In this document: piece by piece, positions 966 to 55,714 of the stretch
Layout of the letters: each line of letters starts with the position of its first letter
Position numbering within the stretch: the stretch's first letter is position 1
Source: Eucommia ulmoides
Lineage: Eukaryota; Streptophyta; Magnoliopsida; Garryales; Eucommiaceae
Length of the DNA: 64,000 nucleotides
Reading direction: 5' to 3'
NCBI GenBank assembly: GCA_016647705.1
Contig: CM028325.1
Location: 32,158,474 to 32,222,473, forward strand
Notes under the pieces: model-generated
The model's database searches: none
Told to the model about the DNA's origin: nothing
Seen by the model: only the letters and a program-made list of their open reading frames with translations
Position numbers and translations under genes: made by a program

Positions 966-2615
966 TCACGATGTTGCTGCAAGTAGCATCGAGAATTTGC
1001 CAACCAGAAAATGAAAGCGCGAAATAGAATGCGACTTGGTGAACAAGTCTGCAATTTGCATGGAGGATGACACAAAAGGCAAAGTAATGGTCCCATGATG
1101 AAGATGATGACGAGTGAGATGACAATCGATCTCAATGTGCTTGGTCCATTCATGAAAGAATGAATTGTGAGCAATCTGAATAGCACTCTTGTTATCACAA
1201 TACATGGGAGTGGGATGAGAAAGAGAAATACCCATATCTGCAAGTAATCAACGCAACCAAACTATTTCAGTGGTAGTGGATGCCATCGCACAATACTCAG
1301 TTTCCGTGGAAGATTTAGAAACAACGGCTTGCTTCTTGCTCTTCTATGAAATAAGAGAATCACCCAAAAACACACAAAAACCTGTAACAGACTTGCGATC
1401 TGTGGGATCACTAGCCCAATCAGCATCAGAATAGGCATGTTGCTCCAAAGATGAGGTTGATGGAAGTAAGAGACTCTGAAATAGGGTACCCCGAAGATAC
1501 TGAAGGATACGAAGAACACCAGCCCAATGAACTGTAGTAGGAGAAGTGGCAAATTGACTGACGATATGAACAGCATGAGCAATGTCCGGGCGAGTGATAG
1601 TCAGATAGACCAAACTGCCAATAATAGTACGATATAAGGTAGGATCTGATAAGAGGGCACCATCAGAAGGTGAGTAGCAAACATTCACCTCTAGAGGAGT
1701 ATCAACAATCCTAGTATCAGTAAGACGAGCACGCTTGAGAATGTCGGCTGTATATTTGCACTAAGTGAGAAGATAGTCTTTCGGAGAAAAAACTACTTCA
1801 ATACCCAAAAAATAGCGTAAAGCCCCCAAGTCCTTCATTTCAAACTGTCGAGATAATTCTGATTTCAAAATTGCAATCCCATCAACATCATCACCAGTAA
1901 TAATCATGTCATCCATATATAAAGATAGTAGAATACGGTCGACAGTAGTACACTTTATAAACAGAGCGAAATCATGATTACTTGGGTGAAAACCAAGCGA
2001 AGTAATTACCATAGAGAACTTCTCAAACCAGGCTCGAGGAGCCTATTTAAGGCCGTATAGAGATTTCTTGAGTTTGCAAACTTCTCCAAACTTATGAGCA
2101 ACACCCGGAGGAGGTGTCATGTAAACTTCTTCATGAAGGTCGCCATTCAAGAAGGCATTTTTAACATCCATCTGAGAAATATGCCACTGACGAACAGATG
2201 CAACGGCAATAAGAGTACGAACAGTCGTCATTTTTCCAACTGGAGCAAAAGTCTCCTCATAATCCATACCATATTACTGAGAAAATCCCTTAGCAACCAA
2301 ACGAGCTTTGTACCGCTCAACTGAACCGTCAGACTTGGTTTTAATTTTGTAGACCCACCGAGAACCAATTGGACTTTTACCCAGAGGTAAAGGTACTAAA
2401 TCCCATGTATCCGTCTTGTATAAAGCAGAGAGTTCCTCAGCCATAGCCTGTTGCCAAAGAGGATCAAGTGCTGCCTCTTTATAGGATAAAGACTCAGAGA
2501 GACAGTGAATAGAGGCTAAAAATGAAGCAAAAGAATGTGAATAGTAAGAATAAATAAAATCTAGTATATGAGTGGACTTACGAATGCGCCGAGGATAGCG
2601 AGGAAAAGGACCCAC
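966..2615 (-). pseudogene. Copia reverse transcriptase and RNase H, broken
   Basis: The RT begins with the conserved entry WQQAMAEELSAL, then RWVYKIKTKSDGSVERYKAR and [12 protein letters not shown]. The catalytic box is [12 protein letters not shown] near 1915, with the YxDD motif intact. RNase H follows with HAYSDADWASD (near 1430), a TETEYCAMA-type segment and PMYCDNKSAIQIAH near 1195. Stops occur near 2268, 2041, 1760 and 1343. The whole segment lies in one frame, shifted relative to Gag and integrase. Confidence 0.88.
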
Positions 2616-4189
2616 AATCTGAGAAGATTCTTGGTAGGCCGTCGGAGGGGAGAGGAGGGGATTCTGGAAGTATCAATACCTGTAGAGCTACCAGTGTCAA
2701 TACCTGCAGAGCTACCAGTGTCAACATGAGGTTCATCAGAGAAAGGATCAATGGAAATGAGATCAGATTTTGTCAAGTTGTGTGTACTAGAAGGAATAGA
2801 GAAAAAATGTATATGCTCAAGAAACACAACATGACGGGACACGTATAGTTTTTGTGCAACTGGATCAAAGCAACGATATCCCTTTTGTCCCTTACCATAA
2901 CCTAGGAAGACGCAAATAGCAGAGCGAGAAGATAACTTACTACGCTCTACTCTCGATCGAAGAACAAAACAAGTGCACCCAAATACTCTTAAAGAGGAAT
3001 AGTTGGGAGCATGACCATATAATTTTTCAAATGGAGACAAACCTGAAGAATGAGAAGATGGGATCTTATTAATTAGGTTCACTGCAGTAAGTACCGCTTC
3101 TCCCCAAAATACACTAGGAACATAGGCAGATAATAAAAGAGAACGAGCAGTTTCAACAATATGCCTATGTTTCCTTTCAGCAACACCATTTTGCTCGGGA
3201 GTGTTAGTACACGAGGTTTGGTGAATCGTTCCATCTAGAGCAAGTAAGTTAGTGAAAGGATTAGAAATGTACTCCCCACCCAAATCACATCTAAAACACT
3301 TGATAATAGCAAAATGTTGGGTTTTAACAAGAGCTCAAAACTTTTGAAAAATATCAAAGAATTCAGATCGACGTTTCATAAGATAAACCCAACAATATCG
3401 AGTGTGATCATCAATGAAGGAAACATAATATCTAGAACCCCCTTTTGTAGCAATTGGGGAAGGTCCCCATACATTAGAGTGAACCAGATCAAATGGTGCA
3501 AGGGAAGAAGAAATGCTTCGATTAAAAGGTAAAGCAGAGAATTTTGCAAGCTTACAACCACTACAATCAGAAATATCACAAACTGACAAATTCCCTAAGA
3601 ATCCTTTCGATACTAAGTATTTTAAACGGGATGCTAAAACATGACCAAGACGAGAGTGTCATAAATGAAAACTAGAAGATGAAGAACTCAAATGAAAAGA
3701 CGACAAGTCAACACCAGAAGCTGCAACCTCTGGTACTCGTAGCTCATCCAGTATATATAGTCCCCCCGGCCTACGGCCTGTCCCAATCAGCTTCTGGGAT
3801 TGCGGATCCTGTACCTGACAAGAGGTAGAAGAGAAAGAAACTGAGTAACCAGAATCACATAATTGGCCAACAGAAACAAGATTCAATGCAAGGTTGGGAA
3901 TATGATAAATACTTGAAAGAGATAACCGAGGTTTGACAACAGAACCAATGCCTGCTAATGGCATCGGAGTACCATCAGCAATCATAACAGATACAGATGA
4001 GGTAGGCTTTAAAGATGCAAATGATAGTAAATCAGGTGACATATGATGAGAGGCTCCAGAATCTAGAACCCATATGGAGGAAGCCATACCTGAAGATCTA
4101 GAGGGTGACAAACCTACTGAAGATGCAGCGGACATGGCATGTGGCTGTGTGGCAAGGAACTTCTGAAATTGTTCAGTAAAGGCCTCCAT
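2616..4189 (-). pseudogene. Copia protease and integrase, broken
   Basis: The aspartic-protease signature appears as WVLDSGASHHMS near 4075. It is followed by the GAG-pre-integrase segment (SDCSGCKLAK near 3560) and the integrase core. The core motifs are HSNVWGP near 3475, FIDDHTRY, and EQNGVAERKHRH near 3190. Copia integrases normally have HSDVWGP; here the catalytic aspartate codon GAT reads AAT (Asn). Stops fall near 3659, 3335 and 3284, and the frame shifts by one near 2615-2635, after which pol continues in another frame. The integrase is therefore dead both by truncation and by loss of a catalytic residue. Confidence 0.87.
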
Positions 4190-4339
4190 TGTGGGATTAG
4201 AGGATGTTAGGTCTCCAAAACTAAACGAATTTGATGACGACGGTACAGTTGCAGCAGTATTAGGCTGTGGAGGCCTGTAAGGACATTTTTTAAAACGATT
4301 GTCAGATTTCCACTAGGGAGGTGGTTGTTGCTGCTGTTG

Positions 4340-18447: not shown

Positions 18448-21400
18448 ATGACGGACTTTATGCTTTTTTGGAATTGCAGGGGGATAGGTAATCCAAAAAC
18501 TCTCTCTTCTTTAAAGAATATAGTTAATCAAAATAGAGTTTCTATTATGGGCTTGATTGCTCCTTGGATTGAGGATAGCAACATGAGAAGAATCAATAAG
18601 GTGATTAAATTTCAAAACAAAATTTCTAATTAAGACGAAAGGGGAAAGATTTGACTTTTGTGGAAGAGTGTTTCTCAAGTTACTATTATTCAAAAACATA
18701 AGCAATTTATTACTTGTGTAATTTCGTGGTTGAATGTAGAGATTTTGGTAGTGACAACTTATGCTAGTTGTTTCATCACTGAACGTCGAGAATTTTGTTT
18801 TTCTCTATTAGCTCTCATGGCTACTAATTCTTTTATGTTGGTTTGGGGAGGAGATTTCAACATTATCAGGCACATAGAGGAAAAATTGGGACGGAACGCC
18901 CCGTCTCATAGAGGTATGGAAGATTTTGAAAATTGTATTCAATAGGCGGGTCTCTTTGAACCGGCGTTCTCAGGATCTCTCTATACTTTCTGCAATAATA
19001 GGTTGGGTTTAGCTCGACAATACTCGCGTTTAGACAGAGTCCTTGTTTCTCAGAATTTTTACACGTTGTATAATGACAGGCTTACTCATTTAACCAGGGA
19101 TGCCTCAGATTATTGCCCGTTGTTATTTTCCTCTTCTGCCACAATTTATCAGGGTCCTCGTTTACATCGTTTTCAACGAATGTGGGAGAATAATGAGAAT
19201 TTTCTGATGGTGGTTAAAGTTGCTTGGTCTTCTACTCATGTTAACTATTTAGTGAGACTTAGCTACAATCTAAAAAATGTGAGAACAACCTTGAAGGAAT
19301 GGAACTGGAACACTTTTGGAAATATTTTCACTGACTTGGATATGTGGAGGGATCGAATTGAGGTTCTCGACATCAGCCTTCAGTACCAATGGAATGAATA
19401 TGTCGTTAATAAGCTGAAACTAGCTTATATTGAGTTAGATAAATGTTTGAGAAACGAGGAGATTTATTGAAAGCAAAAATCTAGAGAGAAGTGGTTAAAG
19501 AAAGGGGATAGTAATACAAAAAATTTCCATGCTTCGGTTAAAGATTGAAACAAACCTCTCAACTTAATGGGCATAAAAGATGGTTCAGGGAATTCTTTGG
19601 CCGACCCAAATATCTTTCACATAGCAGTTATTGATTTCTATCAGGATCTTTATCAAGTCGGTCCCATTAATATGAACATTAGCTTATTGGACGTCATCCC
19701 AACATTGGTAGATCACGATGTCAATGTTGCTCTCATTTCTCCGTTTTCTATGGATGAGAAATCAAGGATGTGGTTTGGTCTATTGACATTGACAGTGCGC
19801 CAGGTATTGATTCATTTTCCTCAGTTTTTTTTTAGATTTCTTGGGATATTGCCAAGCATGATATATGGTCTGCTGCTAATCGCTTCCTTCAAGGTGATTA
19901 CCTGTCTGACTCTTATACTAGTACATTACTAGTGCTTATTCTTAAAAATATGGTCCCATCCTCTCTAAATCATTTTAAGCCTATAAGTTTATGCAATGTG
20001 GTTTACAAGATTGTTTCGAAAGCTTTGGCATACCGTTTGGCCACTCTATTGTCGCTGCTGATTTTCTCTCATCAACATGGTTTCGTTGCGGATAGATCTA
20101 TTACGGAAGTGGTGGGTTTGGCTCAAGAACTTACTAGAGACTTGGGCAAGAAAATCCGAGGTAAAAACGTTATGTTTAAACTGGACATGTTGAAAGCCTA
20201 CAATAGGTTGGAATGGCCTTTCTTGATTGCAGTGTTGAGAAAATTTGGCTTTTGTGATGCTTTCATTAGAGTCATCTCGGAAAGTATTTTGAATGTTAAA
20301 TTTTCGATGATGTTCCAAGGTAGACGTCTATAAGGGGATTTTCCAAAACTCTCAGGGTTTAAGGCAAGGGGACCCTATTTCCCCCATTATCTTTATTCTT
20401 GCCGAAGAAGTGCTTAGTCATTCAATTTCACAAGCTGTGAATAATAATCTTATCAACCCATATAGTAGTAGACTTAGATGCCCGATCATTTCTCACCTTC
20501 TCTTTGCAGATGATACGTTATTATTTTGTAACGGAAGTGTGTCGAGCATTCTCCATCTCATGTCGGTTCTTAAAGATTATCAATCAGCATTAGGCCAATT
20601 GATCAGCCTCTCAAAGAGTAATTTTTACGTCCATTGAAATTGTCCACCAAGTAGAATTGTTATGATTCAACAGGCTACTTTGTTCCAACGTGGTACTTTC
20701 CCTCTTACCTACTTGGGTGTCCCTATTTCATACAGTCATCTAAAAGCCACGGATTTTGACCCTCTTGTTGACGAGATAGCCAAACGCTTGAAAGGTTGGA
20801 GATCTAGACTTCTCTCCAAAGGAGCTCGGCTTATTCTTTTGAAACACGTGATAGCCTCCATGCCCATGCATCTTATTGCAGCTGCTTCCATTCCACTTTC
20901 TGTTCTAAATAGGATCGAAGCCATTATGGTCCGTTTCTTTTGGAACTCATCTGATACTAATAAGAGACATCATTGGATTGCATGGAATATAGTTTGCAAA
21001 AGAAATAGTGAAGGAGGCCTTGACTTGCGCACCTTACGTGATTTGAAGGAAGTTTTTTCTCTTAAGAAAATTTGGAGCTTAGTTCATGGCAAGTCTTTTT
21101 GGTCAGATTTCATGCATAGAAGGTATATCAAAAACCTTCCTATTTCATTGTAGAGGCCTTGTATTAATGAGTCTAGATTCTGGAAAGACATTATTGAAGC
21201 TTGGTCTATGTTTATGGATTTATCTAGATGGGAAGTGGGGGATGGAAAAAAGATTAGTTTTTGGTTTGATGACTAGGGGTTTGGTGTCCTTTCGAATTGT
21301 GTCTATGGGGAGTTTCTAGTATCGACTGTTCAAGAAGTAGTAGTAACAAAAACTTGGCGGCTTGCAGATTTATCGGATCAGAATAAGGAGTTTTTGGACG

Positions 21401-23182: not shown

Positions 23183-23919
23183 ATGATATTAGGGAAAATT
23201 ACCGGTTGAACCCATTATTAGCCTTAATCTACCAATAAAACCAGCTCATGTTTTACCGAACAGCGTAGTCCCTCGTCGGATTTATTGTGCACCGATCAGT
23301 CCCAAATTCGAGTACCGTACACATTTCGGTGATCGATTTGCCCTCCCGTTGTACACGAAAACGATTTCCAGTAATCAATCCGGTTTTTCAGTTGTGAAAA
23401 CATACTATAAATACCAAATCAGGGCATTTTTCCTCATATACATTGCATTTCGAATTTCAAAATCAAGAAATTGCTGTGGACGTAGAGAGAGACGATCGAA
23501 GCAGAGCAGATAAGGAAAAGCAATTGATGAATCATTCCGAGCCGATCAACAATAGGTAACACACATCCTCATTTGATATATGCCAATTGTAGTGATTTTT
23601 AGGGACATATTGATTATCAAGTTAGGGTTTTTCGACAGTAACGCGTACAAAGACCTAGTTTTTGGTTGATGAAGTTCTTGTTGTCGAACATACGTGTACG
23701 AAAATGCTTTAGAAACGCATGATAAAGTGATCTTAGTTGTTGATCGACATACATAGTAGTTTTTTGGATCGAAATGTAATGCAGTACAATAACACACATG
23801 ATGTTGTACATATAATGAGTTACATCTAACACAAGCACAATTGTGTGTTGATGTACATAACGTCATACGTACAGCGTGTTACATTCTTGATGGCGTGTTA
23901 CATTTTTTAACAAGAAAAA

Positions 23920-24520
23920 GGTGTATGTTACATGTAACATAAACCTAATTGTGTGTTCATGCACATAAGGGCGTACGCTTAGCGTGTTACATTCATATAG
24001 AGTGTTATATTTTCTTAACAAGGAAAGATACATGTTACATGTAACATAAGCATAATTGTGTGCTGATACACATAACGTTTATACGTATAGCGTGTTACAT
24101 GTAACACAAGCATAATTGTGTACTGATAAACATTACGTTTGTACATGTAGCGTGTTACATTATTAGGACGTGTTATATTTTAACGGAAAAGGGTTGTGTT
24201 ACATGTAACATAAGTGTAATTGTGTGCTGATGTTACATGTAACATAAGCATAATTATGTGCTGATACACATAACGTTTGTACGTATAGCGTGTTACATGT
24301 AACACAAGCATAATTGTGTGCTGATAAACATTACGTTTGTACATATAACGTGTTACATTATTAGGACGTGTTACATTTTAACGGCAAAGGGTCGTGTTAC
24401 ATGTAACATAAGCATAACTGTGTGCTGATACACATAACGTTTGTATATATATCGTGTTACATTGTTAGGCCGTGTTACATTTTAACGGGAAATGGGTCTG
24501 TTACATGTAACATAGGTACT
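23920..24520. repeat. 5' cluster of GTTACATGTAAC palindromes in tandem subrepeats
   Basis: Eight exact copies of GTTACATGTAAC start at 23927, 24034, 24094, 24198, 24232, 24292, 24396 and 24500. They are embedded in diverged tandem units that also repeat the phrases ATAAGCATAATTGTGTGCTGA and CGTGTTACATTATTAGGACG; the units recur at spacings of about 100 and 200 bp. The block lies just upstream of the transposase start, where a promoter or leader is expected. Confidence 0.9.
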
Positions 24521-24586
24521 CCACGGTGTGGATATATGGTGATATTAGATGTAACATATTATGTTTTGCAAAAAAAGAGATGGATC

Positions 24587-26923
24587 ATGTGTTCTAATGG
24601 TTATTGGTATGTCAGCAGGGGTCAATGTTTGATTGCATGCATGTGCAATTATGAGGGGGTGAATGCAATTTTGAGGATTTCCAACAACAAAAACATTAGC
24701 GATTTGTGTAACAAGATTATAAGCAAATGGCCAGAATTAGCTAAGTCAAAATTTAACTTGTCATACGCATTGCATGGCCATTCCAACTACATGCTTGCTG
24801 ACCAAAACGACTTTGAGGAGATGATGTTGCTAATAGCGCATCAGAACATTGAGCTGTTGGATATATGCATCCAGAGAAGACTGAACGATTCTAGTGGATC
24901 GAATAGTGCATCAACGAGTGCCACTACACTGTTAAACAGTGGCGGAGACAGCGAAGATGAACTTGACTACATAGGTAGTTACGGCAACATTTTGCAGCGG
25001 CGTAATGACAAGATATTATTGTTATCTCAGTAGGCTAATGGGATCCAAGAGGATGGTAAAAAATTCAGAGGCGGAACAAGCGAATTCCGGGATGTATTAA
25101 AAAAATATGCAATTGAGATTGGATTCAATTTCTATTATTTAAAAAACAACAAAGTGCACGTGACAGCTGCATGTGCACTTAGAAAGGAAAAGAAATGCCC
25201 ATGGTTTGTGCACGGATGTGTAATGCGGGAAAATGGTATATTCTACATCCGGAATCTAGTAAACAAACACACTTGTGGGTCTGCTTTCCGCAAAAACAAA
25301 AACAAACGAATGAGCTCGAAGATTGTTTCTGGTTGTTTGATCGATAACGTACAAATAAACCCTAAAACGCGCCCTGTTGATTTATTTGACAATTTCAAGA
25401 GGCAATATAATATTAAGATCTCGTATCGCAACGCGTGGCTTGGTGTAGAAAATGCCAGAAACAAAGTGTTTGGGGATTATTCAACATTGTACGACCAATT
25501 ACGATAGTATGTTGATAAATATAGATAGACGAACCTCGGGAGTCATGTTACACTCGATTATGATGAGGAAATGGGACATTTCAGACGTATGTTTGTTGCA
25601 TTCGAAGCATGTATTCATGGTTTCCGCTTCTGCCAACCAATGGTGTTCCTTGATGGAACATTTCTTGCCGGCCGATATAAAGGGAATTTATTAGCTACGA
25701 CGGCAAAAGATAGCAACCAAGGTGATGTCAGTAAATGATTTTCATATTTAGTATATAGTACAATATTTTTTCAGATGACACTAAAAAAACTAAAAACGTA
25801 TGTTACATGTAACACTGTTACATGTAACAAATATATCATATGTGTTTATTGATTGAAATTTTTTGTGATTGGGTTGTTTTTGCAGGGAAGTTCCCAATTG
25901 CATTTGCAATTGTGGATCAGAAAATGATGAGAATTGGAATTGGTTTTTACCTGAGTTCAGAAAGATCGTTGCGACGGATCTTGTGATAACGTTTATTTCA
26001 GATCGTCATAATGGTATATTAGAGGGAGTACGTAATGTATTCCCAAATTGCCACCATGCATACTGCCTATTGCATTTAAAGATGAATATGAGGGCTGCAA
26101 CGGCTGGGAGAAACACCGCACTCAAGGAATTAATGATTCAGAAATTGAATGGGTTGGTGTATGCGCACACACCGGATGTTTATAAAATGTTGTATGATCA
26201 AATAATGTACGAAAGCGGAGAAAAAGTTCAGTGATTCATGCACGATCTATCTGCAATGAAATTCAGTAACGTTTTTTTTCGGGGAAAACGTTATGGTGAG
26301 ATGACATCAAACATGGCGGAATGTTGCAACTCTTGGATAAGTGAATATCGTCATTTGCCTGCAATATTGTTGATTTACAAAATTAAAATATGGTGGATAG
26401 ACCTAATGTCCGATAGGAGACAAGAATCAAAAAATATGGATGGTAATATAACACCGTTTTGGGATAACAAATTGTGCGAGTTGATTAATGAAGGAAGAAC
26501 ATGGAATATCAGCTTATCTGGTGATGGCTGTTATGAGATTCATTCATCCCCATCAACGCTAATTGATACGGTGGGACGATCATGCTCGAGTAGACAATGG
26601 CAGATAAAGGGGTTCCCTTGCGTACACGGTTGTGCAACAATTAGCAAGAGCGGCTTGCCGGACATGATTACATAGAAGAATACTTCAGCGTCAAATTTTA
26701 CCGAGAGACCTATTCGAGAGGAATTTATGCAATCCTGACAATCGAACGACCTATGTGGATTGAGAGCGAAGCAATTATATTACCACCATTGTCAAAGAAG
26801 TAACCAGGTCAGCCGAAGAAAGTAAGAATACCGTCAAGGAGTGAGATAAAAGAAAGAAAGTGTGGGAGATGTGGAAAAATGGGCAGACACAACAAGAAGA
26901 CATGCAAAAACCCGTTGGCATAA
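24587..26923 (+). pseudogene. MuDR-type transposase (PB1, DDE, SWIM and CCHC), broken
   Basis: Translation probably began at MCSNGYWYVSRG. An N-terminal PB1-like domain (LSYALHGHSNYMLADQNDFEEM) is followed by the MuDR DNA-binding segment (KCPWFVHGCV, then NKHTCGSAFRKN). The DDE core follows: FLDGTFLAGRYKGNLL (near 25640), a 180-bp intron, FISDRHNGIL (near 26000) and MTSNMAECCNSW. A SWIM-type zinc finger, RQWQIKGFPCVHG (near 26590), and a terminal knuckle CGRCGKMGRHNKKTC (near 26870) complete the protein. In-frame stops fall at about 25031, 25505, 25535 and 26232, and a one-base shift occurs near 25917 after the intron. The gene once cut and moved the element in the nucleus. Confidence 0.88.
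25720..25885 (+). other. Transposase intron with two GTTACATGTAAC copies
   Basis: The stretch between the DGT-containing exon and the next exon (acceptor TTTTTGCAG before 25886) holds two exact palindromes at 25802 and 25817, nearly back to back. Their absence from the surrounding exons and presence in this short intron fits a motif tolerated or selected only in non-coding DNA. Confidence 0.65.
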
Positions 26924-26929
26924 GACTGA

Positions 26930-27620
26930 GTATATCAAGAGACTATGTTTTTGGATTCGAGAGTCGACAATTAAATTTCATTTTTTTTTGACAAAAACGG
27001 ATTTTTGGCATATCTAGTAATTAACATTTGTATTCAACAATGAAACAATAAATGTTTTTTTTTTTTTGCATTCCATATTTTTTGTAAGTGTGTTTTTGGC
27101 GAAGTTGTTGATGATTTTTTTCAACACAACAATAATGGATTTGTTACATGTAACACTATCATGCTTTAGTGTAACGTTTTTTTTTTTTGTTGTTACATGT
27201 AACATTAGCATTTTTTTAGTTAAACATTTTTATTTTTTTTTGGCAAATGTTAAATGTAACTAGCCCTTTATTTTCATACAAACTAATGCTACGTATAACA
27301 TGGACTCAGCACCAAATGTTACATGTAACAATGTTACATTTTTTTGTTACATATTGTACAGATCACATAAATAAATGCATAACACAGGATTACACCCCAA
27401 AATTAAACCGTCATTTGATAACTTGTTGGGGAAAAGACGTTTTTTTTTTTTTTTGAAATAATGAGTTTTGGTATTCACGTCTCGTTAGTATAACTAGTCC
27501 TCAGTTTTGGAAAGGAGAACCTTTCATATTCCCTAAACGATAGAAACCCTAACATTCTGCAACTCCGTCGCCTATCATTGTCGGTCCCGTAACCTTGATT
27601 TTTGTATCAATTAGTTCATA
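26930..27620. repeat. Spacer between the two element genes, with motif copies
   Basis: This spacer between the transposase stop and the next ATG has exact GTTACATGTAAC at 27143, 27192 and 27318, plus half-sites such as ATGTTACAT. It probably holds the 3' end of the transposase unit and the promoter of the downstream gene. No other coding frame is supported. Confidence 0.7.
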
Positions 27621-28189
27621 ATGGTGTCTACACGGCGGAAGATGATCACTAAGAACCCCAATATTGTGGATGATCCTGTCAATCTCTCCGACGCAGGTAA
27701 CATTGATGCAATATTTGATGATGATCTCAACTGTTTCGGCGTAGAAATCAAACGATAGGTCTTAGTTTACGTGTTTGGACTCGTAGTTTACGGCATGTAA
27801 CCATATATTGAACATTTAGGAGTGGCAATTTTTAGTTATCATTTGTACGTGATAGAGTCCTGTGTTACGCATATCGTGTTTTGTGATTTCTACAAGTGAT
27901 ATTGCGATTTGTTTAGTGCAGTTGTATATGTCTAGTGATTTCGCCATACAAGTACGTCAACCTGATCTGGATCGATTTTCTTTGTGAACAGTTATGTGAT
28001 TTTAGCCGTACATCATGATTTACTTGGTGTGGTGACAATACGCCAGTCACAAATTTCATATATTTGGTGCGAATCGTTTTTTACCGGATTTTTGAAGTAG
28101 TACTTCAGCTATTGTCATTGTTTTTCAAAAATTTTGCGCACAAATGATACATGTAACATTTTTCAGTTATTACTGGTGTGTGCTCAAAA

Positions 28190-28620
28190 TTTTGTCGATG
28201 TTTTATAAGTTGTTCACAGATGTTACATGTAACATTTTCAGTTTTGTATCTTATTGTGTACAAATTTTTTGATTTTAGCTGTTGTGAAATGTAACATCAA
28301 TACATGAAATGTAACATTAATGTACTTTTTCATTCTTTTTCGATATTTCAAATTTGTTCACAGATGTTACATGTAACATTTTTCAGTTTTTTACTAGTTT
28401 GTGTGCTAAAAAATTTGTCGATGTTTTTATAAGTTGTTCACAAATGTTACATTTAACATTTTCCAGTATTCTTATCATATTGTGTCCAAATTTTTTTGAT
28501 TTAGCTGTTGTGAAAATATCAATACATGAAATGTAACATTAATGTACTTTTTTCATTTTTATCGATGTTTTCAAAATTTGTTCACAGATGTTACATGTAA
28601 TATTTTCGGCTATTCTTGTT
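28190..28620. repeat. Motif cluster in the long first intron of the VANC-like gene
   Basis: Exact GTTACATGTAAC occurs at 28222 and 28366, with one-base variants near 28143, 28446 and 28589. They sit in a repeated frame of about 145-220 bp containing the phrase GTTCACAGATGTTACATGTA. Confidence 0.8.
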
Positions 28621-31309
28621 CTGTATACAAGAAGTTTGATTACATATTGTTGGAAAGAGATTTTAGAGTGCAGGAAATGTAACATCTTTTGTGTGTGGGG
28701 CTTTATGCATTAATATACATTTTGCAAATGACACATTACCTGCTGGTGATGCTCATCACAACACAGTACTGGTTGTTGATGCTCATAACACGCATATAAG
28801 CACAGATGATATTGAGGATGGTAAAAAAAAAAACATTTTTACACAATTCTTATTTGCTTTATTTTTAGAATTTGGAATAGTTTTTAGTATCTATTGATTT
28901 ATGTGTCTTCCATTTCGGGGGAACATGTCCCAGATGTGCCAATAGTGTCAACAAGCAAACAAGGAGTAGCGACAATTGGCCAAGACTCATCAGGACTGAT
29001 CAAATACCGATGTAACCTGTCACAGGTCTCATCAGTCATCAATGAATTACAACTAGATGATGAACATATATCTTATTTACGACGCACCCCCTTTTGGAAC
29101 ACCATGAAAGCACTGATGAATTATCAAGATGACAAGGTTTCAGCCCATTGAATCGACAGTCTGATAGTGAATATTATCTGGTGCTATCATCTGGAAAAAA
29201 AAAAAAATCAAATTGGGGCCACGCTTTGTGGAGTTCACAAGCAATGATGTGCAACTTATTTTTGGTTTGCCACGCGGTGAAGTACAACTGCCCGGTAAGT
29301 ACGCAAAGAAACAAGATTGTGTATTCTTAGTGCGTTAAGGTTTAAACACGAACAAGGTAAGTGTTGTACAATTAAAGCAATTATTACATGCTGCCATCAG
29401 ACAACAAGACGAAGAAAGTGTGAAGGATGTTGTTCGACTACTGTGTCTTCTTTTGTTGACAACCTGCTTCTTTAGTAATAAGGGGCAGTATGTTCGAGTA
29501 TCAGACCTGAACATTGTAGAGGATTTGGATGTTATGACAACTTACAAATGGGCTGACGCCATTCATTCAAATTTGATGTCATCAATTGAATGTGGATATC
29601 AGAGACCGAGCTCTGTAATGGGATGTGTCATTGTTTTGCAAGTAATAAGAACCGTGCTAAAATTCAGTAGTAATTGTGCATAATATATAATTGTTTCTAC
29701 AAAATGCTTTTATGTTGTTTTCCCAGTTTTGGTTGTGCGAACACTCAAGGTTGATCCCACCAGTGGCACAAAGATAGTTGCAGTCCCTCGTTCTTTAAAA
29801 TGGGATATGATGACATTGACATCGGTTGCTTCCGGACTAGATTTGCATAATTTAACCGCTGATCAGGTGTGTGTGTTTTTCCCTAATTTTTTGAAATGGG
29901 ACATGACAACATCAATGACCTTGGATTGCACAATTTAACTGCATACCAGGTGGGTTTTTTTTGTTAAATGTAACAGAATTTGTGTTACAATAAAACACAG
30001 GGTATAAAATGTTACATATAACACATTTGGGGGGGGGGGGAGGGGGGATGTTTTAGTGTATTTTTCTGATACATAACATTGTTTTTGCACTTTTTTACTG
30101 ATGAGTTTAGGTTATCCAGGGACTAACATCAGAACTAGTGTCAGAGCTCAGGGCAGGTATTGTACTACCTGTGCATGGTGACACAGAGATTAGTTCATCT
30201 AATACCAGTGCTAAGATTAAGGGAGAAGAGGAGGTGTCTGTTGCTGACGATATGTCGTCCCTTGATTTGTTAATATCGCAGCCATTTGATGAGGACGTTG
30301 TTAAATTTTGTGGAGGTTCACAAAATTTAACAAAGCTTGTCGAAAGCAATCAGAAACTATTATGCAAGGTTGATAAAGCGAGGACGAAGCACAAGAAGAT
30401 GAAGAGAAGAATGAAAAAAAAAAAAAGATTCAGCATATGAAAGGTGAGATAGAGCGGATTGGTGATGAGAAAAACCAACTGCAGGCTGAGATAGAGAGGT
30501 TGATAGAAGAGAAAAAGAAAACAGACAAGAAGTTGGTAGAAGCTGAAGTTCACAATGTTACGCAACAATAGAGGATGGTGGAAAAGATTGAAAAAGCTGT
30601 TGTGCATTCGGTAACACAGACAGTAGAGAAAGATAGGGAGCATACTGAAAAAATGTTTGGTCTGACAATTTTTTATCGATGTGAGCTTTAAGACAGAGAC
30701 AACGTGATTGTCAGGCAAGCATCAATCATTGCTGCCCACAATTCACCGCCAAGGACCTCAATTCCAACAAAACCGAAGCTTAGGCGCAGTACGCGTTCAA
30801 AGGCTGAAACCAAAACACCAACATCTCTTGTAAAAATCGTTAACAGTAGTGTAAGGACACGGAAGACTAATGATGAATCAATCCACAAATACGATGTACC
30901 TGTCAAGAAACCGCGACGATTGAAGAAAAAGTATGATGCACCAGTCCCTGATGCTGTGAAGAGCAATGAGCAAAGTACATTGGCCCACAATGGCGATGAA
31001 CCTCAAGAATTGCCTCCACGTAACAACGCCGTTGCAAAAATGATTGCAGACGATGATTGGGACAAACTCAATCTGATTATACGGGAGGATGGATGTGGGT
31101 AAGTTTAAGTGTCAAATATGCTATTCTTTGGAACAACGGACATTAGATGTACATCATTTTTGTTTTACTTTTTCATTATTATTGCAGAGAATTTGTTTGG
31201 GGAGAAGATTGGGTGTTCGCTCAAGTATCCATCATTGATTTGATTGGATTGATGTGGGAAAGTCAACTCTCAAATATTGTGAGTCACTTATCGTTATAAC
31301 AAGGGCGAA

Positions 31310-31470
31310 ATGTTATATGTGACATTTCATTTTTGCGATATTACATGTAACTTTTCAGGTGTAATGTTACATGTAACATTTTTAATAGTTACATCTCGTG
31401 ATATTTTGCGTCAATGTTACATGTAACATTTTTTACAAGCCTATATATGTATGTCACATATAACATGCAA
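31310..31470. repeat. Motif cluster in a Ulp1-region intron
   Basis: Exact copies start at 31366 and 31416, with a variant TATTACATGTAAC near 31340. All lie between the exon ending CAAATATT|GTGAGT (31279) and the next acceptor near 31564. Confidence 0.8.
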
Positions 31471-32819
31471 CACGCCGGTCATGTTACTTACACTTTTTTT
31501 GTTTATTTTTTGAAATATACAGATGATTATAACATTATGTTGGTGATTAATAAAACGTTTTTTAGGTCATCAATGGATGTATGGAGATGATGTCTCTTGA
31601 TCAAGCAAAAGTTGCAAGTGATTTAAAAGGGATTAGTCATGATTTTCCAAATAGGTCATATTTCATTAAATAGTTGTTGCTGGGTAATCAAACTGTTACA
31701 TTTTTTTTTCATTTTTAATGTGTTTTTTATTTATTTTTTTGTTTGATTTGCATGCACACATTTGTGTGTTACTAATTGTTTGAAATATTTTTCAAATATA
31801 TGCAGTTTTGGATTACACAGGGGGACAAGAAAATGTTGGCAGACAATCTTAACCCAAAAATTATAGAAGCATTTTTCGACAACTATAGATTTGTGCATTT
31901 CCCAATAAATACTTTAGGATTGACATCATCAACTGGACACTGGACACTGCTTATCTGTGATAAGCATGAGAAGAAATGGACACACTACAATTCGATCAAC
32001 CTCCGACGTCCGGGAGATGTTGATAGATTTTACGAGAATGCAAAAAGACTTGTGAGTTTTAATAAATAGGTTTGAAGCTTTTTTGTGTGCCAAAGCAATG
32101 TTGAATGAATAATCCTCACCATTTTTGTTCCATGGTCAAATGTAGGTTCGTTATGTTAATGTATTATTGTCAAAGGAAGCCAGCGAATATCAACTGTTGG
32201 ATGCTAAAATTTCAAACTCCAATAATGTGCCAGATCAGGGATCATCTGTGTAAGTGCACTTCATTTTATCGCTAATGAATTATGTTACCCAAACACACCA
32301 GTTATTGATGAATTCTATTAATATAATATACTTTGTAGCGTTGATTGCGGTGTTGCTATAATTCATGTCATGAAAAGCATATTCAACAGCGTACAAATCA
32401 ACGTTAATTATGGCATTGAAGGTTTCAGAAGAGAAAGAGCAGCACTTGTGCACGAATTCCTCAATGATTCACCCAGATCTTGGACTTTCGATGACTTCCA
32501 AACAAGGAAAAATAACGAAACACGTCGTGCTGAAGAAGCACAGAACAACTGAAAAACCATAGTTTTATTTTGTATGGATTAGAACAAATTGCTTGTTAAC
32601 CTGTCTTTATTTGGTTTAAACATCATACGTAGTTAGATTTTTATTTTTGTATGAAAGGTATAATTGGGTTTTTGTTGTTTTGTGTTGTGTAAAATGCAAC
32701 ACAACTATTTTTTGGATGCACGAACTATTATTTTGGTGGGTTGACACTTATTTGCAAAGTTTGGGTTGCGTCTCAGAGACACAAACTGAAAAAAAAACCT
32801 ACAATTCTGAGAACCAACC

Positions 32820-33410
32820 TTCCAATGTTACATGTAACATTTTCAAGATATATCCACATTTTTTCAGGGTCAAAAGTATGTTCCATGTATCATTCTCATG
32901 GACACACATATTCAGTAATGGTTAACGACAACTCCACTTTGGATATGGAATTATTAGTAGAACGTGCAAATATTACATGTAACATCAATGAAATTATCGT
33001 CATGGACAGATTCACATTTTCTAATTCAAAATGGATGTTACATGTAACATCAATGACATATTCAGTAATGTTTAACGACAACCCCAATTTGGATATAGAA
33101 TTATTGGCAAAACGTTCAAATGTTACATGTAACATTAATGAAATTATCGTCATGGACACATTCACATTTTCCAATTTCAAAATGGATGTTACATGTAACA
33201 TCAATGAAATCATCGTCATGGTCACATAATCAATAATGTTACATTGGATGTTACATGTAACATTTTTTATTCTTTTGCACACCATGGATATGCATGCAAC
33301 ACGAGCAGATGTTACATGTAATATTGAAAATGTTACATGTAACATGATTATACAACGAATGACATGAATTTTTTTTCTGATCTTTTTAAATGTTACATGT
33401 AACATCAGTT
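32820..33410. repeat. 3' cluster of GTTACATGTAAC palindromes in ~145-bp tandem units
   Basis: Seven exact copies start at 32827, 33037, 33122, 33188, 33250, 33332 and 33392, with variants near 32972 and 33310. A unit of about 145 bp starting CATATTCAGTAATG is repeated twice (32910 and 33055). The cluster lies downstream of the last coding exon and so outside any gene, mirroring the 5' cluster. Confidence 0.9.
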
Positions 33411-33692
33411 ACATCAAGAAAAAATCTCCAAAAATGTGATTAACACTTCTTTTCGAAGAGAATCAAACGATATACAGTGTCTGCAATACACTGAATTCGT
33501 TACCATATATAGATCCCGAAAAACAGGGGAGTTTAGCAACAGAAGATGAGCTGTTAAGCATGAGGCGCATGAGAGGGGCAGTATCGTCACTAAAATGGCA
33601 AAAGGATCAGGTGGTGCAAGGAAATGTCAAAGGGTTTAATCGGTAGTTTCAGCGTGTTTTTGGGACTGTTCAGTCAGCGCCCCATGATATTA

Positions 33693-35284: not shown

Positions 35285-38045
35285 ATGATGGAAAATATGG
35301 AATTATTACTCTTCGGTCTTTTAATTTTGTGTTTGTTTTTTGTGGTGAGAATTGTTTATGAAACTATAGTCTGCTACTGGCTAACACCCCGACGCATAAG
35401 GAGAACCATGGAAATGCAAGGCGTCAGGGGGCCGCCGCCGCGGTTTCTCGTCGGAAACATACCGGAAACCGTCGCAATGGTGGCTGAATCCACCCGCAAG
35501 GACATGGACTCCGTCGGACACGACCTAGTTGGCCGGCTTTTGCCGCATTTCGTCCTCTGGTCTAAACTATACGGTACAATTTTATTATTTTTCATATTTC
35601 TACATTTATATTTCTATTATTTACTTTCTAGTATTTTAGTTTTTCTGTTTTGTATTTTACTTTCTGTCTACATAAAATAAAAAAATAAACAAAAAGTCAT
35701 GTTAATTAAAAGCTGAAAAATACTAATAGATAGGTCAACCGGTAGATTCACATCACACCTGCGATCTTTCTACCGATAATGGTGGTACCCAGTCCTATGG
35801 GCCACATTCTATTCGGAAGAATAAAATACAAATTGTCTTTCGGAGAGATGGCTAAGTGGTTGATAGCCCCGGTCTTGAAAACCGGTATAGTTTTGAACAA
35901 AGAACTATCAAGGGTTTGAATCCTTCTCTTTTTTTTTTTCGTTGAATAGACTTGTTTCTTTGTGGAATAGAATTATTTCTTTATTGGCCTGGACAAGTAT
36001 CGTAAAGAAAGCTATTAAATATTTTTTTTATATTTATTAAGTATTAATATATATTTATTAGATATTTTTATTTTTATTTTTAATATTTAAAAAGGGAAAA
36101 GATTTATATATTGGAATGGTACGGAACCACGGCTGTGCTTGACGGAGACGGAGCTCGTCAAGGAGCTACTGCTGAAGCACAATGGCATTTCCGGAAAATC
36201 ATGGCTACAACAACAAGGATCAAAGCATTTCATCGGCCGGGGCCTGCTCATGGCCAACGGCCACCATTGGCACCACCAGCGTCACATCGTTGCGCCGGCT
36301 TTCATCGGAGAAAAACTCAAGGTAACGGTGATCGGAAACCCTGTAAATAGCACTTTTTACCCCCAATTTTTAGATAAATTTTCACCTTTTACTCTATAGA
36401 GCTACACGGGGTTCATGGTGGAGTGCACCGAGCAAATGCTACGGTCGCTTGAGAACGCAGTAGAGACGGGTCAAACCGAGTTCGAGATCGGCGAATACAT
36501 GAGTCGACTCACTGCTGATATCATCTCTCGGACCGAGTTCGACGGAAACTACCAGAAGGGGAAGCGAATATTTCATTTGCTTACGGATTTACAAAGACTT
36601 TGCGCACAAGCTACCCGCCACCTGTGCTTTCCTGGCAGCCGGTGAGTCATCTTCTCGATAAGCCCATTTTCTCTCTTCTTTTTCTTTTGGTTAATAATGA
36701 AATCAAATTAATAAAAATTCTTAAACCAAATAAATATTTTAATTTGACTACAGTTTAACAGAATTTATTGATCAATATTTTAATTAGAGTTGCTTCGTCA
36801 ACCACTACTTCACCGTAACCGATCACCAGACTTCGGTCGTCGATCACCAAAACTAGAATCACTGATCATCGAAATTTTTTTTGGGTTAATCGGCCGGAAG
36901 TTTCAAATAATAGACTTAACTTTAAAAAAATCTCACTTAAGATATAAGTTTTGATTTAATCCCTTAAGTTAAATTTTACTTGAGTTTTAATTCCGGGATT
37001 GTAGGGAGAACTTGGTGAGTAAATTCGTATTATAGTGAATATTAGTTACATGTAACAAATATTAGTTACAATTTAATAATTATTAAATATATTTATGTAA
37101 TATTAGTTACATGTTACAATTATATATATATGTATGTATAATATTTGTGACATTCAACAAATATTACACACATAAATTAATTTAATATTACTTACATGTA
37201 TTTATATATATTTAGTTACATGTAATTAATTACATGTATTTTGTTTGATTTTTGTTACATCTAACAAAATTTTACATACAAATAAATTATATGTTACAAA
37301 ATACAGTAATATCTGTAACATCTAACAAAAATTTACACGCAAAGTTATTAAATATAATCGCGCATGTGCAAGCGCATGTAGTGGGTTTCCGTCTTTTCTA
37401 AATAGATAGAACTAAAACACAAGTTTCTTTTATCTAATTTTTTTGCTTTTTTATTTCAAATTTAACTACTCGTCTAAAGTTTAATTTATATTCATAATAA
37501 AATTAAATGTAATTGATAATTTTTAGAATAAAAAATTATTTTAGTTAAATACATTCATTTAATCATGAATATATTTTTTATTTTTTTTAAATAATAATAT
37601 TGCACTAGGAATTTGCCGTGAATTAAAAAAATTTATTACTAGCTATAATATTTTAAAAGCTCATAATTTTAAAATATACTTATCCGTCCATACTTAAAGG
37701 CACATTTTAATATAATTCTAATAAAAAATAATTATATAATTTAAAATTATAAATTTAAAATATAATTAATAAATTACCTTAACAATTTAATTTATATTAT
37801 AATTAATGTCATGAATGCAAATGATATAATCTCTCTAATTATATAATTAAACGGATGAAATTATCTCCAATTATATCCCCGCCGCCTCAAAATTTATTGC
37901 TTGTCCTACAAAATTGTGTGCCATTATTCCTTCAAAATTTTATGTTAACAAATAATTAATTTTACCGTTTGATTAATCTAATTTCTACTCTTAATATTTT
38001 CAATTGATTTAAGGAGTTCATATTATATAATTTTTTATTTTTAAA

Positions 38046-54019: not shown

Positions 54020-55714
54020 TTAGGGATCTATACTCAACTTCGGCACTTGATCAAGAAATAATAGATTGTTTCTTAGAGGTCCACGAGATCAGATTGGAGC
54101 CCAAGAAAACACAGAAATCAGTGCTGGAATGACGTGAGTCAGGGCAGCCTGCCCAATCAGCATCAAAATAAGCCTTGACGATCAAAGGGGTAGCACTACA
54201 CTGAAAAAAGAGGCCAAAGTTCAGAGTCCCTTTGAGGTATCGAAGGATTCGTTTGGCGGCTAAAAGGTTGTGTGTCTGAGGTTGGCTCATGAACTGAGCA
54301 ACATGATAAACAGCATAGGCAATGTCTGATCTGGTAAAAGTGAGATACTACAAAGAGCCAACCAATTGGCAATACTCAAAGGCATCTGTCAAGAAATCCC
54401 CACTTTGAGATGACAATTGAGTTTTCGCACATATAAGGGTATTGCCAGGTTTGCAGTCTGTCATTAAGAAACGTGCAAGAAGATCGATAGTATACTTGAG
54501 CTGAGGGAGACGTAAGCCAGCAGAAGAGGAAGTTGCTTCAAGTCCCAGAAAGTACGATAGGGAACCAAGGTCACTAAGCTCAAACTCCTTGCTAAGAGTA
54601 GTGATGAACGATGGGACCAGAAACGGTTGATTGCCAGTGAGTATGATATCATCAACATATAATAGCACTGCAGAGTTAAAGCGACAGATAAACAGGGAAT
54701 GATCAGCTTGACTCTAGGTAAAGCCATACTGTAAGAGAAAAGTGCTAAGACGTTTGAACCAAACACGGGGCGCTTGTTTGAGTCCATATACCCAGGTGGT
54801 TGTGCCATGTAGACAGTTTCATCCAAAATACCATGAAGAAAGACATTTTTCACATTAAGTTGGCACATTGTCCACCCAAAGGATATGGCAAAGCTGAGCA
54901 CAGTACGAACAATAATTGTTTTGATTACAGGACTAAATGCCTCATCAAAGTCAACACCCGTTTGTTGATGAAATCCCTTGGCAACTAGGCAAGCTTTGTA
55001 TCGCTCAATAGAACCGTCTGCATTGCGCTTGAGTTTGAATACCCACTTACAACCCACAATATGTTGATATGAAGAAAGAGGGACAAGAACCCAAGTTTTG
55101 TTCTTCAGTAAAGCATTAAATTCATTGGTCATGGCTTGACGCCATTCAGGGACACGAACAGCTTGAGTACAGCAAGTAGGCTCGTCAGTAAGAGAAGGAA
55201 GCTGAGCAAGTAGAGCTTGTGGGAGAGGGTATCGGATTGTACCATCTGTCCGAATGAGAGGACAACGTGTGCCATCGCGATGACGTGTGACCATCGAATG
55301 TAGCGAAGGAGCAGGAGGAGCCTTAGGTGAGGCAACAGCAGAAAGATTAAGCGGAGAAACTGGAGGAGCCTCAAGGGAGGCAGCAACAGAAGGACTAGGC
55401 GGAGGAACTGGAGGAGCCTCAAGGGAGGCAATAGCAGAAGGACTAGGCGGAGGAACTAGAGGAGCCTCAGGGGTGGCAACAGCAAAAGGATTAGGTTGTG
55501 CGGGTTGGTTTTGTCGACTCTAATAATGAAACGGACATGGCTGATGAAGAGAAGGCAGAACACTATTTTGTGTAGCCGATTGCAAAAGTTGAGCAGGAGT
55601 TGGTGGTAGTAGAGAAACAAAGACCCATGATGATGGGTCTGGTGGAGTGCTTCTAGTGTTAGATGCAAACAGAAAATGTTGTTCATTAAAACAAACATGT
55701 CGGGAAATGTACAC
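54020..55714 (-). pseudogene. Copia integrase tail, reverse transcriptase and RNase H, broken
   Basis: The protein starts in the integrase C-terminus (YISRHVCFNEQHF). After the spacer the RT shows WRQAMTNEFNALLKNKTWVL, CKWVFKLKRNADGSIERYKA, a QLNVKNVFLHG segment and the catalytic LLYVDDIILTGN (near 54650). RNase H has LRYLKGTLNFGLFF and KAYFDADWAGCPDSR (near 54175). A frameshift lies near 54790 and stops near 54715, 54348 and 54050. LNVKNVFLHG has Asn where the family usually has the first catalytic Asp. Confidence 0.85.
55309..55490 (-). repeat. 60-bp coding tandem repeat in the Copia spacer
   Basis: About three tandem units of GGAGGAGCCTCAAGGGAGGC plus an ACTAGGCGGAGGAACT-type phrase. On the minus strand they encode proline-rich 20-residue repeats in the linker between integrase and RT. 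Confidence 0.85.

Follow-up and report, generated by a model that had tools for sequence, protein, structure and literature searches.

The window, a 64-kb stretch of DNA, contains a decayed VANDAL/KIU-type Mutator-like element, probably of the KIU subtype, whose non-coding DNA carries arrays of a 14-bp palindrome, TGTTACATGTAACA. This motif is private to the element's family, which we call family A, and is also present in short non-autonomous copies; a related family in the same genome, family B, likewise contains DUF1985 genes and has a quite different palindrome, AGTAGATATCTACT. The privacy of the motif refers to these two families as compared, and its core is common to a second small element family. 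The pattern is that reported for VANC21 and VANC6, and for this reason we hold it most likely, with fairly good confidence, that the palindrome is bound by a DUF1985 protein that relieves silencing, in the manner of VANC anti-silencing with dyad targets.

The element is bounded by an exact 9-bp target-site duplication, as had been claimed in the initial annotation of this DNA (Table 1). Its ends, GGGAAAATTACC on the left and GGGGCGCTGACT on the right, agree at 13 of 30 positions, indicating degenerate terminal inverted repeats, in keeping with the weak ones noted earlier. The left end has at least 40 matches in the genome, the window included, at 89-100% identity (40 of 271 candidates scored). 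A sister full-length copy at C5:11919202-11929609 is 94% identical to the window element over 10,302 aligned bases, and the target duplication read from its flanks matches at 8 of 9 positions. The MuDR-type transposase described in the initial annotation was recovered, with DBD_Tnp_Mut (2.8e-9) and MULE (9.4e-10) both above the Pfam cut-off. The gene is broken: it is interrupted by stops at ~25031 and 26232, and its frame shifts around 25450-25507. Thus, the earlier description of the element as complete-length holds for its extent and fails for its coding capacity, given the stops and frameshift in the transposase and a TAA in the DUF1985 exon. The window copy is dead.

Table 1. Features of the family-A element and of a neighbouring small element, in window positions
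Feature	Position	Strand	Basis or remark
Left target-site duplication ATGATATTA	23183..23191		exact match to right copy
Whole element, family A	23192..33683	+	10,492 bp; 9-bp target-site duplication, termini, second full-length copy
Left terminal region	23192..23400	+	repeated genome-wide, at least 40 matches
5' array, 8 copies of TGTTACATGTAACA	23926..24512		tandem repeats, upstream of transposase
Transposase exon 1, DBD_Tnp_Mut	24587..25694	+	in-frame stop and frameshift; start codon approximate
Two adjacent palindromes, presumed transposase intron	25801..25829		motif count
Transposase exon 2, MULE domain, weak SWIM below cut-off	25869..26675	+	one in-frame stop
Five palindromes between the two genes	27142..28378		partly tandem repeats, periods 50 and 224
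DUF1985-like exon	29195..29599	+	one TAA in window copy; Pfam match below cut-off
Lysine-rich open frames between DUF1985 and Ulp1	30111..31102	+	by eye; membership in one gene inferred
Two palindromes, presumed intron of second gene	31365..31428		motif count
Ulp1/C48-like exon, HW motif	31776..32069	+	Asn at expected Asp position; Pfam match just below cut-off
Second Ulp1-like piece, SVDCGVAII	32300..32480	+	by eye, limits approximate
3' array, 7 palindromes	32826..33404		motif count
Right target-site duplication ATGATATTA	33684..33692		exact match to left copy
Separate small element, ~0.6 kb	36880..37490	-	holds 25th 12-mer (37045) and variant half-sites; limits approximate

The second gene of the element appears to have coded for a VANC-like DUF1985 protein, probably with an Ulp1-like domain at its C-terminus, and the DUF1985, lysine-rich and Ulp1-like frames appear to form that one gene. 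Of the DUF1985 and C48 gene that had been proposed, both exons are present on the same strand. In the window copy, the DUF1985 match scores 0.0012, below the Pfam cut-off, and the Peptidase_C48 match scores 0.0013, just below it. The DUF1985 exon of the C5 copy gives a near-full-length match to PF09331, covering positions 9-140 of 141 (2.3e-7), at 31.3 bits against a cut-off of 35.1. DUF1985 is thereby under the Pfam cut-off in both full-length family-A copies, whereas family B exceeds it at 36.3 bits; the DUF1985 exons of the two families are ~33-35% identical. The C48 part of the proposal is marginal, its score being 20.6 bits against a cut-off of 20.7 when two pieces on the same strand are joined under an inferred gene model. 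The Ulp1 region retains HW and DCG in the window copy and reads QW and DYG in the C5 copy, and both copies have Asn at the position expected for the Asp of the Ulp1 catalytic triad. Because catalytic positions are altered in both copies, neither protease is likely to be active. A search of 5.8 billion proteins with the DUF1985 exon returned nothing at E 0.001, and a search of PDB sequences with the family-B DUF1985 frame returned a single chance-level match (E 0.21). An AlphaFold model of that same family-B frame, built on 9 aligned sequences, had a mean pLDDT of 38.6 and was not carried forward to a fold search.

Exact copies of the 12-mer GTTACATGTAAC number 25 in the 64-kb window, and 24 of them lie within the element, the figure given in the initial annotation; 100 dinucleotide shuffles of the window contained none. 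All 24 in-element copies are flanked by T on one side and A on the other, indicating that the real unit is longer than the 12 bp originally described and is the 14-bp palindrome. The half-site, ATGTAACA, occurs 72 times in the element, and none of the 72 falls within its 4140 bp of predicted coding DNA, the exon limits of which are approximate.

We then consider the distribution of the motif in the genome (946.7 Mb, 391 contigs), using the reversed motif as the control. A genome-wide count had been suggested in the initial annotation. It yielded 6566 copies of the 14-mer compared to 2 reversed, and 10,041 copies of the 12-mer compared to 44 reversed; pairs of 14-mers 0-30 bases apart number 526, compared to 0 in the control. 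We sampled 17 stretches that contain the 12-mer (10 multi-site and 7 single-site), chosen among the first sites listed, all of them on C1, and three arbitrary stretches besides. Twelve of the 17 contain the 14-mer and five have the 12-mer only. Family-A-type ends are found on both sides of the motif at 8 of the 12 14-mer loci (L006, L007, L008, L011, L013, L014, L016 and L018), among which only L011, L013 and L016 are independent (3 of the 7 loci outside the end profile), since the end profile was built from the window and L006, L007, L008, L014 and L018. Of the remaining 14-mer loci, L009 has one family-A-type end, L010 and L020 have weak ones and L017 has none; a sequence weakly resembling an end is also present at one arbitrary locus, L024. 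The ends of L006, L007, L014 and L018 are adjoined by exact 9-bp duplications, and that of L008 has one mismatch. The eight short copies measure 0.9-1.7 kb and hold 6.6-12.9 half-sites per kb. The corresponding densities are 6.9 per kb in the window element and 6.7 in the C5 copy, compared to 0.11 in the rest of the window, 0.30 across the three arbitrary loci of 10 kb each, and 0 in the family-B loci, of which there are four. Among the loci sampled, the motif is thus far from equally dense in unrelated elements, and these densities support a private motif.

The 25th 12-mer of the window belongs to a separate small element. Four of the five C1 stretches with the 12-mer only (L005, L012, L015 and L019) hold members of the same second small family, and the fifth, L021, is unassigned. 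The family has GGG..CCC ends, and its relative at L015 has an exact 9-bp duplication. Across five copies of this family the half-site ATGTAACT occurs 27 times and ATGTAACA 9 times, compared to 7 and 108 times, respectively, in the eight short family-A copies. The second small family is possibly a third motif system that shares the 12-bp core.

Family B emerged from a genome search with PF09331, which gave at least 105 matches (150 of 580 candidates scored), some of them paired ~5 kb apart. Four loci represent family B here: L029, L030 and L031 each hold a pair of this kind, and L032, a lone match, is ~91-92% identical to the other B loci over 1.4-1.5 kb. Neither GTTACATGTAAC nor ATGTAACA is present in any of the four. 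Instead, they hold 46, 47, 62 and 36 copies of the half-site AGTAGATATC, which is half of the palindrome AGTAGATATCTACT, at a density comparable to that of the family-A motif in its own elements. This B half-site is absent from both full-length family-A elements, which hold 72 and 70 copies of ATGTAACA. Genome-wide, the B 14-mer occurs 4120 times compared to 6 reversed, and a fifth PF09331 match, at C1:12301986, sits inside a cluster of it. None of the B 14-mers overlaps the DUF1985 or coiled-coil-like frames listed for the B loci. Four B half-sites (three in L031 and one in L032) do lie in stop-to-stop frames, near their beginning and before the conserved domain. The start of the B element, GGGAAAAATTTTCTGC, resembles the family-A end GGGAAAATTACC and was seen at two loci with unrelated sequence upstream. 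Family B is a putative MULE, known from stretches that cover its left end, at two loci, and its DUF1985 genes. At L029-L032 and at C1:12296079-12309226 the family has a tandem pair of DUF1985 plus coiled-coil-like genes.

The family-A DUF1985 exon has at least 150 matches in the genome (150 of 2024 candidates scored), with identities from 100% down to 47%. By eye, the matches listed fall into groups of ~80-92%, 54-60% and 47-51%, and many have no internal stop. The subfamily at 54-60% has many open frames of 231-234 aa and was probably active recently. Among the 40 left ends listed, 32 are followed on the same strand, at no more than 12 kb, by a DUF1985 exon, two of them sharing one exon. On C1 and C2, for which the listing of close motif pairs is complete, 3 of the 4 listed exons that are at least 85% identical to family A have a close pair of family-A motifs no more than 10 kb away, compared to 1 of the 11 less similar exons listed (74% identity) and 0 of the 5 PF09331 matches listed.

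We also compared the motif with its flanks in the two full-length copies. Between the window and C5 copies, 19 of the 24 palindromes are unchanged over all 14 bases, compared to 551 of 1679 flanking 14-mers, and substitutions affect 12 of 388 motif columns compared to 116 of 1982 flanking columns. This signal of selection is supportive rather than conclusive, since it comes from a single pair of copies and sequence exchange between tandem repeats is possible. Half-site spacing in 12 C1 loci has a period of ~10.2 bp, with p values (<0.001 at a limit of 110 bp, 0.001 at 140 and 0.04 at 80, where the best period is 20) that are optimistic because these are related loci examined at several limits. 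No helical spacing of half-sites was detected in the window copy alone (p 0.36-0.64), and the family-B half-sites have no clear period either way. Sasaki 2022 reportedly covers many VANC systems and a helical periodicity of motifs.

If the palindromes are the targets of the DUF1985 protein, that protein would bind the half-sites ATGTAACA, with a homodimer on the pairs that make up the 14-bp palindrome, and would load on the arrays in non-coding DNA at the ends, in the introns and between the genes. Loading would then strip silencing marks from the whole element, and could act in trans on short non-autonomous copies that have the same arrays. As a DUF1985 clade diverges, its palindrome may be replaced through tandem-repeat turnover, leaving each family with a private address. 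Symmetric methylation could not mask the family-A site from such a reader, as the site has no internal CG or CHG.

The main rival explanation, which we regard as unlikely, is that the element's own MuDR-type transposase, or a TnpA-like helper, binds the palindromes, which would then be subterminal sites that serve synapsis and cleavage and are kept for mobility. The location of 15 of the 24 palindromes within ~1.4 kb of an element end is what such sites would predict, as is their retention in non-autonomous copies. Since motif and transposase travel together, co-variation of the motif with DUF1985 is also compatible with a transposase site. TnpA sites are themselves subterminal, and neither Spm TnpA nor MuDR MURA is known to be a DUF1985 protein. 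According to the available part of one article, the action of these two element-encoded proteins, Spm TnpA and maize MuDR MURA, accompanies and correlates with demethylation of the family (PMC10398659), which lends this rival further support. However, the other 9 palindromes lie in presumed introns or intergenic DNA, as reported for VANC21, and the arrays of family B surround two DUF1985 genes, with no transposase seen by eye in the listed frames of 10-kb stretches, beyond which the B elements extend.

Two further explanations have less in their favor. Dense arrays upstream of both genes would suit sites for a host transcription factor, used as a promoter or enhancer, but arrays are also found in introns and at the 3' end, and a second DUF1985 family within this genome has a quite different palindrome; we consider host-factor sites very improbable. 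Least probable in our estimation is that tandem duplication generated the motif passively and that no protein binds it. Arrays identified by Tandem Repeats Finder do contain 14 of the 24 palindromes, and some of the other 10, in the 3' array, have flanks that look similar by eye. Several of those 10, however, have unrelated flanks, the motif is better kept than its flanks between the two full-length copies, and predicted coding DNA is free of it.

Returning to recognition by the DUF1985 protein, the closest known systems are VANDAL21 (Hiun) with VANC21 and VANDAL6 with VANC6 in Arabidopsis, which resemble family A in being Mutator-like elements with a DUF1985 gene and a clustered non-coding motif. 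VANC proteins are TE-encoded, sequence-specific anti-silencing factors. In the available part of the 2017 article on them (PMC5735166), the VANC21 and VANC6 motifs form non-coding clusters, many of them tandemly repeated, related families differ in motif, and the VANC21 motifs are arrayed in a single orientation. The same source gives short, non-palindromic motifs, YAGTATTAY for VANC21 and AGTTGTCC/AGTTGTAC for VANC6, in contrast to the 14-bp dyads of families A and B. It also reports that AT9TSD1, another element family, carries the VANC6 motif, which parallels the sharing of the core by the second small family here. A figure legend in it marks both DUF1985 and DUF287 in VANC proteins, whereas a Pfam scan of 14 open frames or parts of frames in the present material gave no DUF287 match. 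Its text defers to future work the question of which part of the VANC protein sets the target, and a meeting report, in the part available, mentions an unpublished crystal structure of VANC21 (PMC8756742).

Kaonashi (KIU) elements, in the descriptions available, are non-TIR MULEs that share with family A a DUF1985-type gene, weak ends and, probably, an Ulp1-like domain in that gene; their motifs are recognised in related elements, as is proposed here. The accessible portion of a 2026 review defines KIU as VANC genes with an Ulp1 domain and calls them strongly conserved in eudicots (PMC13317346). An Ulp1 fusion is therefore not new. The initial annotation had envisaged a VANC equivalent with a different, palindromic motif and an Ulp1 domain fused to its protein; the densities uphold the private palindrome, while the fusion is neither novel nor, given its marginal Ulp1 match, firmly established in this element.

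Two aspects appear to be new: sites of this length with dyad symmetry, and a pair of mutually exclusive palindromes in one genome. A full-text search of a literature library with both palindromes matched only two tobacco small-RNA papers, and Sasaki 2022 may hold palindromic motifs. More tentatively, and with rather less confidence than we place in binding itself, these families might represent a wider radiation of DUF1985 elements, every clade having its own 14-bp dyad address (TGTTACATGTAACA, AGTAGATATCTACT and perhaps AGTTACATGTAACT), read by DUF1985 homodimers. If this were true, the elements would direct sequence-specific anti-silencing by a swappable address code based on dimers and would supply natural protein-site pairs with which to decode how DUF1985 reads DNA. 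Since one genome contains two diverged DUF1985 families with exclusive palindromes and many open frames, changes in the protein can be matched to changes in the site. Sites bound by dimers would, moreover, be compact handles for targeted epigenome editing.

The tobacco matches concern a 21-nt small RNA, ATTGTTACATGTAACACTGGC (Nta-miR26a, nta-miR132c; PMC3306195, PMC3237444), which contains the whole 14-mer TGTTACATGTAACA; its presence there may be due to chance or to a transposon-derived small RNA. Elsewhere in the window, open frames that by eye resemble pieces of copia-type retrotransposons occupy 2561-4312 and 54464-55519 (minus strand), and others at 18946-21153 (plus strand) resemble pieces of non-LTR (LINE) elements.
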